Shown in pieces: positions 31,832 to 34,925 of a stretch of DNA of 36,338 nt. Made by a program: the position numbers and the translations under genes. How positions within the stretch are numbered: the stretch's first letter is position 1; each line of letters starts with the position of its first letter. Source of the DNA: Methanosphaera sp. (GTDB taxonomy: Archaea; Methanobacteriota; Methanobacteria; Methanobacteriales; Methanobacteriaceae); contig NZ_JAEELZ010000034.1 of the NCBI RefSeq assembly GCF_016282985.1, positions 1 through 36,338 of the forward strand. Reading direction: 5' to 3'. Below the pieces are notes generated by a model. It made no database searches. It was not told the origin of the DNA and was given only the letters and a program-made list of their open reading frames with translations.

Positions 31832-32435
31832 TCTCTTTTCCAATTTTTTCTGCTCTTTTTATATGTTTTTCTTCATTATTCAATTCTTTTTCTTTTACAT
31901 AGGCTGTTTCTGTAAAAAAATACATATTTGTTCTTTCTGTTTTTCCGGCCATCCTATCATTTATAAAAATTGTTTCCAATGCTTTTATTTTACCATCCTC
32001 TTTTAAAGTTTCATAACTGCTACCTGCACTTATTAAAAAATTTGTTTCATCCATGGTTTTCATTGTAGTATTTATCCCATCATCATAATCATATTTGAAT
32101 CCTTTCGTAAATACTCTTGAAAAATAGCCTACTAGTTTTGATGGAGCATCCATCCAAAATAATGGGAAAATAAAGGTTAATATATTAGCATTATTTATTT
32201 TTTTCTGTTCTGTAATGATTTCATCAGATAAAGGACATTCTATGTTATTATTTTCTCTTAAATATTCCTCTTCTGAAATATCAGTATTAAAATTTGATTC
32301 GTATAATTCAGTTATAGTATACTCAATATTATTTTGACTTAATCCTTTAATGTAAGATTCCTTGATTTTATAAGTTATTGATTTTTTACTTGGATGACAA
32401 TATATTATATGTACTTTACATTTTTTTGAATTCAT
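31824..32435 (-). CDS. Flavodoxin-fold NAD(P)H oxidoreductase (NQO1/KefF-like)
   Basis: The 203-aa protein resembles the NQO1/KefF/MdaB family of FMN or FAD-dependent quinone reductases. The N-terminal 'VHIIYCHPSKKSITYKIKES' is the flavin phosphate loop, and 'ANILTFIFPLFWMDAPSKL' (about 85-103) is the family's 'fP.yw...pa.lK' signature. It would use NAD(P)H to reduce quinones or other electrophiles. No clear Shine-Dalgarno sequence precedes the ATG, so it may be leaderless. It is divergent from the NifX-like gene (76 bp apart) and convergent with DUF116. Confidence 0.85.
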   Translation of the reverse strand: MNSKKCKVHIIYCHPSKKSITYKIKESYIKGLSQNNIEYTITELYESNFNTDISEEEYLRENNNIECPLSDEIITEQKKINNANILTFIFPLFWMDAPSKLVGYFSRVFTKGFKYDYDDGINTTMKTMDETNFLISAGSSYETLKEDGKIKALETIFINDRMAGKTERTNMYFFTETAYVKEKELNNEEKHIKRAEKIGKETS

Positions 32436-32438
32436 ATA

Positions 32439-32448
32439 CTTATATAAG
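32439..32448 (+). promoter_or_regulatory. Palindromic TATA box of the NifX-like gene
   Basis: CTTATATAAG is a perfect palindrome 63 bp upstream of the NifX-like ATG, a fitting TATA position. It lies only 3 bp from the flavodoxin-fold gene's ATG, so rightward transcription from it would interfere with the leftward gene. Confidence 0.45.
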
Positions 32449-32511
32449 GACTTAATTAATAATAATAACTTACAACAAATAATATTAGTAGAGTTTAAGG
32501 GGGCACGTCGA

Positions 32512-32856
32512 ATGAAAAAAATTGGTGTGGCTGTTAAAGAAAACGGAAAACATTTGGAACATTTTGGTATTTGTGAATATTTTATTGTTTATAAATATGA
32601 TGAAAATAGCCATAATATTGAATATGAGAATATATTATTCTCCTCAAAAGACCATAGACCTGAAGGAGAAGAATGGGAAAAATCAGCAGATACTATAAAA
32701 GGGTGCGATATTGTTATCTGTGAAAAAATAGGTCTGGTTGCAAGAGCAGAAGTTGAAAGAATGGGTATTAAAATTATAGAATCAGAGGGCCTTGTAGAAA
32801 ATGCTCTTGATAATTTTATTAATAGGGAAATTAAAAAATCAAGTATTAAATTGTAA
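32512..32856 (+). CDS. NifX/NafY-like (FeMo-cofactor family) protein
   Basis: The 114-aa protein belongs to the dinitrogenase iron-molybdenum cofactor family, which also includes many small archaeal proteins outside nitrogen fixation. The pattern 'KIGVAVKENGKHLEHFG' at the start, 'DHRPEGEEWE', 'DTIKGCDIVICEKIG' and 'RMGIKIIESEG' is typical. Relatives bind metal clusters. No nif genes are in this window, so a role in nitrogenase is unlikely to be testable here. A strong AAGGGGGCA ribosome-binding site precedes the ATG. Confidence 0.88.
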   Translation: MKKIGVAVKENGKHLEHFGICEYFIVYKYDENSHNIEYENILFSSKDHRPEGEEWEKSADTIKGCDIVICEKIGLVARAEVERMGIKIIESEGLVENALDNFINREIKKSSIKL

Positions 32857-33070
32857 CATAACCTCCATAACTAACACTTTTTTAAAACTTAATATTGTCT
32901 ATCATTTAAAGTTAAAATTAATGGATTAAAAGTAAATCTAATTTTAACAAATATAGCTTAAAGATTATTTATAATAACATAAATAATATTTAATTAACCA
33001 TAAAATAATGATTTTAAAGCTTTAAAAAATCAGTTATTAATAACAACCATTCTTGAAAGGAGTGTCAATA

Positions 33071-33913
33071 ATGCAAATAGATGAAAGTTGGTACAAACTA
33101 TATGAAAACTTGTACGGAACTGAATTCAATAGGTTTTTAACCATAGGCAATACGAAAATCGGATACACCAATTACAATATTCGATCCCTCAACGAAATCA
33201 AAGAACTTATTGAAGAAAATTATCCGCAAAATGAGTTTTATATAAGTTTGTACAATTACAATACTGAAGAAAATATTCTTCGATGGGGCCTGAACGAAAT
33301 GGACAAATACGAAGAATATGCTGAAAAAAATGGAATATTAATCCGTTTTAAACAAAATACGGACATAATAATGGAAGAAATAACCAATTTAACCGATATT
33401 CAAAAATTTATGTTCATACGAAGATCAATTAACCTTGGATTTAACAAAGATATTGTGGAAGAATGTAGCAAAATATATAATTTCTTTAAAACCCATTTCA
33501 ACATCAAAGGATACCCCATGTTTAATGGATATGATGAATGTTTAATATACTATAGAACTAATGAACTAAAATTAAGCTATCCTAGTCTTACATGTCATAA
33601 TCTTTATAAATTATTAAAAGAAAAGTTAGAACTTAAAACATTACTCTATGAAAATATTGAACCCTATGCACAAATAGTACCATTACCAGGTACACAAAAC
33701 AGTAATTCAAGATTGTATACTCAGTTATATTTCCCTGAATATTCCTATGAAGAAATTATGTTAAAAGGTCAAGAAAAATTCCTAGATGAAGAACATTTAC
33801 AAGAATTTGATACATCAAACGATTTTGAACAATTCATGAAAGACATAGATAATGAAATTAAGAATTCTGAGAACAGTAGATACAATTTCGATGACATTTG
33901 GGATAAACTTTAA
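33071..33913 (+). CDS. Unknown protein, possibly degenerate primase-like (AEP)
   Basis: This 280-aa soluble protein is of no family I can name with certainty. Its arrangement recalls the small primase subunit: 'NEFYISLYNYNTEENI' early, then 'ILIRFKQNTDII' where primases have an acidic strand. A helix leads to 'KGYPMFNGYDECLIYYRTN' (compare 'y..fSGnkGfHiyi') and 'IVPLPGTQNSNSRLY' (compare 'R.P.siN.k...'). The catalytic Asp pair and the His are missing, so if related it should not polymerise. The tail (225-280) is acidic. The ATG at 33071 is chosen because AAAGGAGTG precedes it; an upstream TTG at 33053 is unlikely. It stands alone between two T-tract regions. Confidence 0.5.
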   Translation: MQIDESWYKLYENLYGTEFNRFLTIGNTKIGYTNYNIRSLNEIKELIEENYPQNEFYISLYNYNTEENILRWGLNEMDKYEEYAEKNGILIRFKQNTDIIMEEITNLTDIQKFMFIRRSINLGFNKDIVEECSKIYNFFKTHFNIKGYPMFNGYDECLIYYRTNELKLSYPSLTCHNLYKLLKEKLELKTLLYENIEPYAQIVPLPGTQNSNSRLYTQLYFPEYSYEEIMLKGQEKFLDEEHLQEFDTSNDFEQFMKDIDNEIKNSENSRYNFDDIWDKL

Positions 33914-34010
33914 TTTATAAAAACCTTTCAAGAACTACTCTTTTTTCACTTTTTTTAAAATAAAAATTAATTTAAATAAAAAAAATTTTCTCCCAATAGA
34001 CAAGTATTTA

Positions 34011-34137
34011 TTATATAAAAAATATAATATTAAAATAAGATATAGACTAGGTCTATGGTAATTTATGATTCTACAAAGATAAGAATTATTATAAAAGAAT
34101 ATGACTTAAAAATGGTCATGAGTATCTAAATTTTTTT
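34011..34137 (+). ncRNA. Candidate small transcription unit (sRNA or 24-codon ORF)
   Basis: A TATA box TTATATAA (34011-34018) is followed about 25 nt later by the hairpin ATAGAC-TAG-GTCTAT (34042-34056). About 45 nt further on is a second small stem (ATGAC/GTCAT, about 34101-34119), and the unit ends in seven Ts (34131-34137). This gives a self-contained ~100-nt unit with promoter, 5' hairpin and terminator. It also contains a 24-codon ORF (34055-34129) whose ATG overlaps the first stem and follows AGGT. Either reading is possible; no RNA family is recognised. Confidence 0.35.
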
Positions 34138-34223
34138 ATAAAAAACAAATCTTGTTTTATTTACCATGTAGTGGCCTGACGGATTCTTTTCAAATTTAAT
34201 AGATTTCAATAATTTTAACTAAT

Positions 34224-34243
34224 AATTAGTAGGGGTACTAATT
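34224..34243. promoter_or_regulatory. 8-bp inverted repeat with GGGG loop upstream of eS1
   Basis: AATTAGTA-GGGG-TACTAATT is a perfect inverted repeat 103 bp before the eS1 ATG. It contains TAGGGGTA, the octamer found twice in the element at 125-168. It is a candidate operator. Confidence 0.4.
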
Positions 34244-34263
34244 TAATCTTAAACCCAACATTA

Positions 34264-34294
34264 TTACAGCATAAAAAGAGATGATTTGCTGTAA
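34264..34294 (+). promoter_or_regulatory. Stem-loop in the eS1 upstream region
   Basis: TTACAGCA (34264-34271) pairs perfectly with TGCTGTAA (34287-34294). The 15-nt loop contains GAGATGAT, which resembles a Shine-Dalgarno sequence. It lies 52 bp before the eS1 start and may be part of its mRNA leader. The rest of the 33914-34346 gap is AT-rich with no other gene seen. Confidence 0.4.
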
Positions 34295-34346
34295 ATTTAA
34301 TTAAACTAATAATAATTCATAAAAAATAAAAGGAGATAGTGATATA

Positions 34347-34925
34347 ATGGCAAAAGCAAGAAGACGAGTACGTGACACCTGGAAAGAAAAAGTATGGTAT
34401 GAAATTTTAGCACCAGCAGATTTTGAAGAAGCAAGTTTAGGAACAAGCCCAGCTAGAGAACCTGAAATGTTAGTTGGACGTAAAATCGAAACTTCAATGC
34501 GTGAAATTACTGGAGACTTCAGTAGACAATACGTTAAATTATTCTTCGAAGTAGATCATGTAAGTGGTGAAAAAGCATACACCAAATTCACAGGTCACAA
34601 AGTAACTACAGATTACACACGTAGTATGATTAGAAGAGGAACAAGCCGTATCGATTCAATTACCGATGCAACAACAAAAGACGGTGTAAAACTCAATGTA
34701 CACATGTTAGCAATCACCGTAAAAAGAGCAAAATCATCACAACAAAAACTTATCAGAGAAACAATGACCAGAATGATTGTTGAAAATGCAGCTGAAAAGA
34801 ATTTAGATGAACTTGTAAAAGAAATCATCACAGGTAAATTTGCTTCAAACATATACCACGAAGCTAAAAAAATCTACCCACTCAAAAAAGTTGAAACTAT
34901 AAAAACAAAAGTATTAAACAAATAA
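34347..34925 (+). CDS. rps3ae: Ribosomal protein eS1 (S3Ae)
   Basis: The 192-aa eS1 is a small-subunit protein near the mRNA exit and platform in archaea and eukaryotes. It begins with a basic 'AKARRRVRDTWKEKVWYEI', then 'LVGRKIETSMREITGDFSRQ' (about 42-61), 'GHKVTTDYTRSMIRRGTSRI' and a helical basic C-terminus. Length fits the archaeal family. The ATG follows AAAGGAGATAG. It is preceded by a 433-bp gap with several inverted repeats and ends in a T-rich tract, so it appears monocistronic. Confidence 0.98.
   Translation: MAKARRRVRDTWKEKVWYEILAPADFEEASLGTSPAREPEMLVGRKIETSMREITGDFSRQYVKLFFEVDHVSGEKAYTKFTGHKVTTDYTRSMIRRGTSRIDSITDATTKDGVKLNVHMLAITVKRAKSSQQKLIRETMTRMIVENAAEKNLDELVKEIITGKFASNIYHEAKKIYPLKKVETIKTKVLNK

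Follow-up and report, generated by a model that had tools for sequence, protein, structure and literature searches.

Inactivated polymerases are already known in archaea. PolB2 (PMC4104785) is a family B DNA polymerase of this kind: the catalytic residues of a replication polymerase have been replaced and the protein has been retained, its genes are scattered in archaea and linked to inactivated RadA genes, and a repair or regulatory role has been suggested for it. Among archaeo-eukaryotic primases (AEPs), the PrimPol-PV1 supergroup is linked to mobile elements, some of its families have a relaxed motif II His, and it is defined by an Arg in motif IV, while the acidic residues of motifs I and III are nearly universal (PMC5862659). 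The importance of these positions is illustrated by PolpTN2, in which the DID-to-LIL mutant of motif I and the R231A mutant of motif IV lose both activities (PMC5862659). Among the literature matches listed, we recognised from titles and abstract openings no dead AEP primase that stands alone and has become fixed in one lineage of hosts, which is a weak negative, and papers on the Methanosphaera core genome were not found.

Here we describe a gene of Methanosphaera, called dAEP (dead archaeo-eukaryotic primase) below, that resembles PolB2 in the replacement of catalytic residues and in its retention in archaea, and differs from it in being an AEP and in being one syntenic gene of one genus. 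With PrimPol-PV1 it shares the linkage to mobile elements and the relaxed motif II His; unlike that supergroup, it has the defining motif IV Arg in only 1/20 members (Lys in 1/20), and its motif I and III acids are replaced. It seems that Methanosphaera captured a mobile-element primase, which was then silenced and has been retained for what may be a new job.

The window, meaning the whole stretch of DNA analysed, comprises 36,338 nucleotides of a Methanosphaera sp. contig (NZ_JAEELZ010000034.1). The following features have been used in this analysis:

32512..32856, + strand: Nitro_FeMo-Co (NifX-like) domain protein, upstream neighbour, context only (Pfam)
33056..33062, + strand: Shine-Dalgarno-like AAAGGAG, 8 bases 5' of the dAEP ATG (read from the sequence)
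33071..33913, + strand: dAEP gene, 280 aa (open reading frame, genus-wide copies, predicted AEP fold)
33236..33262, + strand: 'FYISLYNYN', residues 56-64, predicted strand (E55-63) upstream of motif I (alignment and model)
33335..33355, + strand: degenerate motif I 'ILIRFKQ', residues 89-95, DxD changed to R92-F93-K94 (alignments; model strand E88-94)
33521..33544, + strand: degenerate motif II 'FNGYDECL', residues 151-158, replacing SGSKGFH, with L158 at the His position (alignment)
33644..33646, + strand: motif III position, Asp in relatives and L192 in dAEP (alignment; adjoins a poorly predicted stretch)
33680..33700, + strand: degenerate motif IV 'PLPGTQN', residues 204-210, with P204 at the Arg position and N210 at the His position (alignment)
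33881..33901, + strand: acidic-aromatic tail 'YNFDDIW', residues 271-277, possible partner-binding motif suggested by its pattern
34347..34925, + strand: ribosomal protein S3Ae gene, downstream neighbour, context only (Pfam)

The reading frame starts with ATG at 33071 and its stop codon is at 33911-33913; an alternative listing gives 286 aa from TTG at 33053. A GGAG or GGGG starting 12-17 bases 5' of the start codon is present in 19/20 dAEP members, the exception being L020. The surroundings consist of ordinary chromosomal genes identified by Pfam (Nitro_FeMo-Co, S3Ae, DUF116, Flavodoxin_2 and Ribo_biogen_C), and beyond these neighbours lie DUF92 and then a phosphoglycerate-mutase family protein. 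Between dAEP and the S3Ae gene there is an intergenic stretch of 433 bases (33914-34346) without an Rfam match. The Rfam search over 32400-34700 gave no family at gathering score, its two matches having E 0.62 and 0.77, and a tRNA or other known RNA feature at the locus was rejected. A promoter scan found 8 sites as against 11.7 in shuffled sequences, using a bacterial model that is unsuited to archaea.

The initial annotation had regarded the protein as an orphan, which proved incorrect. With the window protein as query, one full-length copy per genome was found in 20/20 Methanosphaera genomes (E 3.6e-30 or better), and the same search over 138 genomes of the family gave four weak matches outside the genus. 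A profile of the 20 dAEP sequences (A1; 29-82% identity to the window protein) recovers full-length dAEP in 20/20 Methanosphaera genomes. Outside the genus it gives partial matches only, in 9 genomes at the family scale (138 genomes, E up to 0.01) and in 8 genomes at the phylum scale (151 genomes, E up to 1e-4); weak single-sequence matches in the genomes G059 and G063 have no counterpart in the profile search. No full-length dAEP was found in the 131 other genomes of the phylum.

The gene order NifX-like, dAEP, S3Ae, DUF92 and mutase is conserved as far as the contigs extend. The NifX-like gene is the next upstream match in 19/19 other dAEP regions, and S3Ae lies 3' of dAEP in 18/19, the remaining contig stopping before it. 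dAEP is a genus-wide Methanosphaera family at a fixed chromosomal place. The gap between dAEP and S3Ae is about 2.1 kb in two regions (L084 and L085) and about 0.4-0.9 kb in the others.

S3Ae was found in 20/21 genomes of other genera. No dAEP-like match to the window protein was detected around S3Ae in these 20 loci, for which the DNA examined 5' of S3Ae was usually 1.5 kb (1.25 kb in L096; less than 0.5 kb in L103, L104 and L105). A NifX-like gene was detected by tblastn near S3Ae in 8/20 loci, and the other 12 either gave no match or did not have the region covered. In five of the eight, the NifX-like match ends 464-522 bases before S3Ae, and in three an ORF of about 155 aa lies between the two genes. 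Judging from 27-33% identity, these NifX-like genes are likely to be orthologous to that of the window. Gain of dAEP on the Methanosphaera stem, rather than loss elsewhere, is the simplest reading.

AlphaFold models from five sequences were obtained for the window protein (pLDDT 65.1, pTM 0.67) and for the L028 member (39% identical; pLDDT 71.0, pTM 0.75), with pLDDT <50 around residues 98-123 and 193-204, beside motifs I, III and IV; residues 98-123 and 194-202 are poorly predicted in both models. The structural search with these models had been set beforehand as the refutation test of the proposal that the protein resembles a primase, and no different fold appeared. When Foldseek candidates were aligned by VIA-align, 49/50 listed matches of the window model were AEP primases, primase-polymerases or primase-containing complexes (Z 8.3-10.9), the fiftieth being a herpesvirus helicase-primase complex (Z 5.3), and 50/50 listed matches of the L028 model were of the AEP or primase-complex kind (Z 9.8-12.9); for complexes, chain identity was inferred from title and length. 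Foldseek alone gave seven matches with E <0.001, all of them CRISPR-associated Prim-Pol and RepB', with the best E of 9e-5 (probability 1.00) to CRISPR-associated Prim-Pol. The TM-scores were low (0.29-0.43 query-normalised; 0.43 with rmsd 8.7 for the top match), and unrelated proteins appeared from rank 23 on, at E >0.05. The predicted fold is alike to the solved structures of CAPP (Marinitoga), RepB', the LigD polymerase domain and PriS/Pri1 (Z 8.3-12.9), with 4-15% sequence identity in the listed structural alignments; these proteins are known as active enzymes. On these moderate-confidence models, dAEP consists of one domain, for which an AEP fold is predicted.

Family databases were little informative for the window protein: Pfam gave only DnaI_N (E 0.088, below cut-off), and NCBIfam and PHROGs gave 0 matches each, while for the member L018 a PHROG named 'DNA primase' was matched weakly (E 0.01). 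PDB sequence searches gave one match each (E 0.24 and 0.12) with unrelated names. Relatives were, in turn, found by profile A1 in eight genomes of other genera (E 1e-13 to 3.4e-6; one stop-broken), and a ninth match (L053) has E 0.009 and one stop. ORFs were read for 7 of these 9 loci, leaving out L053 and L046, the latter having the same place and score in its own genome as L045. The matched ORFs in other Methanobacteriaceae genera have 378-416 aa or about 1060 aa.

The relation was recovered in the reverse direction, as a single-sequence search with L045 detected dAEP in 5/20 Methanosphaera genomes (E 2e-8 to 4e-5), a sixth Methanosphaera match being a separate zinc-finger match. Four Methanobacteriaceae loci (L060, L061, L063 and the Methanosphaera locus L069) match L045 only in its C-terminal zinc-finger part. 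The profile-profile check by hhalign, which the initial annotation had proposed, gave 98.3% between dAEP and the intact relatives (E 1.5e-14) and 98.2% with the four shorter relatives (E 6e-14), each E being that for one comparison, and at most 2.4% for 11/11 neighbouring families used as negative controls. The homology of dAEP to AEP primases is significant by profile, reciprocal single-sequence and profile-profile searches.

Six intact relatives were compiled in alignment A3, which does not include L051, almost identical to L050, the truncated L049 or L056 with its one stop. In 6/6 the FxDFD-type motif I, SGxKGxH, the Asp of motif III and RxP are retained. In most intact relatives DNA_primase_S and LigD_Prim-Pol are matched weakly, under the Pfam cut-off, and there are matches to PHROG DNA primases as well. 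The shorter ones (378-416 aa) have a C-terminal CHC2-type zinc finger in 4/4 scanned, one of them over the Pfam cut-off, and the longer ones have a C-terminal part with DUF5906 matches, which we take to be helicase-like. The AEP domain of these Methanobacteriaceae primases (L045, L047, L048, L057 and L050-L052) is homologous to dAEP and collinear with it from before motif I to past motif IV, whereas dAEP is a bare domain with a short tail whose catalytic residues are gone.

The intact relatives probably reside on mobile elements. The long relative L050, the sole one of its kind scanned, matches phage DNA primases with E 6.6e-24, and the L045 primase occurs at 100% identity in two genomes. The respective contigs, of 22,247 bases (G077:C28, with L116/L121) and 22,242 bases (G073:C70), belong to two species and look like an element that has spread recently; the one contig examined showed no terminal repeat. 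An ORF near L057/L119 weakly matches a phage-integrase N-terminal domain (E 0.0017, short of the Pfam cut-off), although an implausible peptidase match ranks first for it (E 0.0005). In tblastn searches of phages, L045 found 13 records, mostly annotated as primase and each covering 12-19% of L045, and L018 found none. Plasmid tblastn found none for the window protein or for L048, and neither the A1 profile nor L045 detected a relative in scans of viral contigs.

Since the host primase subunits PriS (PF01896) and PriL (PF04104) are both present over curated cut-offs in 20/20 Methanosphaera genomes, dAEP is not their replacement, and the idea that it replaces a lost PriL was rejected. The window dAEP has no PF01896 match at E up to 1, and hhalign to a three-row PriS set, of which one row (L074) begins late, gave 0.2% for dAEP and 0.3% for the intact relatives. 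An origin from host PriS is therefore not supported with this set, and a PriS paralogue was likewise rejected, given the separate PriS in 20/20 genomes and the 0.2% in hhalign. By sequence comparison, the nearest detectable relatives of dAEP are the intact primases, which probably belong to mobile elements, rather than host PriS. Outside the window, the same genome carries a PriS match without stops (G000:C137) and a second PriS-like stretch with two in-frame stops (G000:C118:5971-6492). Extra PriS matches, with PriL close by in some cases, occur in other Methanosphaera genomes (G115:C151, G115:C177, G116:C2 and G120:C47), perhaps on plasmids or integrated elements.

The motif residues were counted in a joint alignment of dAEP and the intact relatives, in which L010 and L011 are two rows with identical proteins. 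This alignment, made with MAFFT, misplaces motif I of the relatives L050 and L052 (about 1060 aa), and their motif I was taken from A3. The strings noticed in the initial annotation follow the order of primase blocks in part: 'FNGYDECLIYY' aligns with AEP motif II (FSGSKGFHLYIFF in the intact relative L048), and 'PLPGTQNSN' aligns with the RIPYSKH block, the region named motif IV in PMC5862659, whereas 'FYISLYNYN' is a strand upstream of motif I, which is in fact 'ILIRFKQ'. On this corrected alignment, the replacement of the Asp pair and of the catalytic His, as stated in the initial annotation, is borne out. The FFDFD of the relatives reads LIRFK in dAEP, with MAFFT and hhalign agreeing on its placement, and the first Asp is Arg in 20/20 members and the second is Lys or Arg in 18/20 (Ile in one and His in one); the metal-binding hhhDhD/E of active AEP primases is thus lost, at a position placed by two alignments and a predicted strand. 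In motif II, the nucleotide-binding sxH signature is lost in 19/20 members, the His being replaced by Leu, Tyr, Ser or Cys and kept in L018; this His is also absent from some AEP families (PMC5862659). No Asp or Glu is present at the metal-binding hD/E of motif III in 20/20. The Arg of motif IV has given way to Pro, Thr, Ser, Val or Ala in 18/20, whereas L018 has Lys there and L020 has Arg. At the position of the next His, 16 members have Asn, two have Asp, one has Leu and one has His. Retention of the Arg in L020, the most divergent member, would fit stepwise decay.

By predicted fold and homology, dAEP is a member of the AEP superfamily that lacks the motifs of an active primase. Because these motif residues are replaced, and in view of the PolpTN2 mutants in PMC5862659, dAEP very probably lacks primase activity. 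The resemblance to a catalytically dead primase, proposed in the initial annotation, is thus supported by fold, homology and the replaced residues of motifs I-IV. Invariant residues are present in 20/20 members (R92, E103, R117, Gly153, E156 and D260), with K86 and R118 near-invariant. Through some of these, such as E103, E156 and D260, dAEP might still be an enzyme that performs a different reaction or weak nucleotidyl transfer, in line with the RepE/RepS family, in which the motif III Asp is Gln (PMC5862659), and with PolB2, where one protein of the 'inactivated' group is reported to show very weak activities (PMC4104785). We regard this as very unlikely, since both motif I positions are basic in most members and the residues of motifs II, III and IV are replaced and variable, unlike what a rebuilt metal site would show. 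A sensor of nucleotides or primer ends, whose pocket binds a nucleotide or an RNA/DNA 5' triphosphate without turnover and signals via the tail, is quite unlikely. The retention of the AEP fold by prediction, the invariant R92 and R117 with near-invariant K86 and R118, and the tail pattern in 14/20 members (written after the sequences had been seen) would suit it; against it, and against the nucleotide sensing that the initial annotation had suggested as an alternative to nucleic-acid binding, residues implicated in nucleotide and metal binding are lost, among them the His and the Arg that PMC5862659 connects with NTP binding, each gone in 19/20.

The dAEP ORF is a real gene under purifying selection. 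For 13 pairs chosen out of 190, NG86 dN/dS is 0.07-0.28 in 10, and the remaining values are 0.49, 0.91 (a near-identical pair, dS 0.013) and undefined (an identical pair); dS exceeds 1 in several of the 13 pairs, and YN00 gave 0.06-0.12 in 4 of the 13. Pairwise identities of dAEP track those of S3Ae, DUF92 and the NifX-like protein (r 0.80, 0.73 and 0.81; 171 non-independent pairs each, from 19 genomes), with median identities of 41% for dAEP, 87% for S3Ae, 82% for DUF92 and 65% for the NifX-like protein. Because of the dN/dS values, this tracking and the lower level of identity, we infer that dAEP is vertically inherited, constrained and fast-evolving. The loss of catalytic residues and the mobile-element-like relatives might also be expected of a functionless, decaying remnant of a mobile-element primase. 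This explanation is close to untenable, as 0 of the 20 reading frames has an internal stop despite 29-82% identity to the window copy, dN/dS is 0.07-0.49 in 11/13 pairs, and new invariant residues (R92 and E156) stand at old motif positions.

Our preferred reading, with a rough probability of 0.45, is that dAEP is a captured mobile-element primase acting as a non-catalytic accessory or regulator at the primer-template or single-stranded DNA in host replication or repair. In the stem lineage of Methanosphaera, the primase would have become part of the chromosome 5' of the S3Ae gene, and would then have lost catalysis and been retained for a binding role. Since the two metal-coordinating Asp are replaced by a basic pair (Arg92 and Lys/Arg94), the site should no longer hold Mg or Mn, and this pair in the old active site could directly grip the nucleic-acid phosphate. 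The window dAEP has a pI of 4.69, and pI is below 6 in 17/20 members; the first 300-330 aa of the six intact relatives have pI 9.1-9.6 (three), 7.6 (one) and 4.8-5.3 (two). The acidity, as calculated from sequence, argues against loose DNA binding, and because dAEP is acidic overall, partner binding may be at least as likely as DNA binding, with the acidic-aromatic C-terminal tail as a possible partner hook. The fast evolution of dAEP is unusual for a core part of the replisome.

The main rival is that dAEP serves as a decoy, binding the origin, template or helicase partners of invaders with related active primases and blocking their replication as a dominant-negative immunity, which we consider somewhat unlikely. 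It would suit the fast evolution of dAEP, the nearest detectable relatives being primases on probable mobile elements, and the count of the L045-type intact AEP domain, present in 0/20 Methanosphaera and in 6/130 other genomes of the order with L045 as query (one of the six stop-broken, three further short matches not counted); this co-occurrence, however, does not reach significance (Fisher p 1.0 two-sided, 0.42 one-sided). PADLOC gave 0 families for 3/3 dAEP proteins submitted, of 20 known members. Defence genes are usually patchy and shuffled, contrary to dAEP, which is single-copy, syntenic and universal in the genus; its occurrence in every genome of the genus and its fixed synteny are more in keeping with a housekeeping role than with a decoy. 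Also unlikely is the related proposal that a captured primase, whose metal site turned from acidic to basic, blocks invaders' replication at the primer-template or replication proteins for immunity or replication control.

If confirmed, dAEP would be a clear example of an enzyme that was captured and lost its catalysis, for which intact relatives, a genus-wide set of members and dAEP-free loci of related genera are all available.
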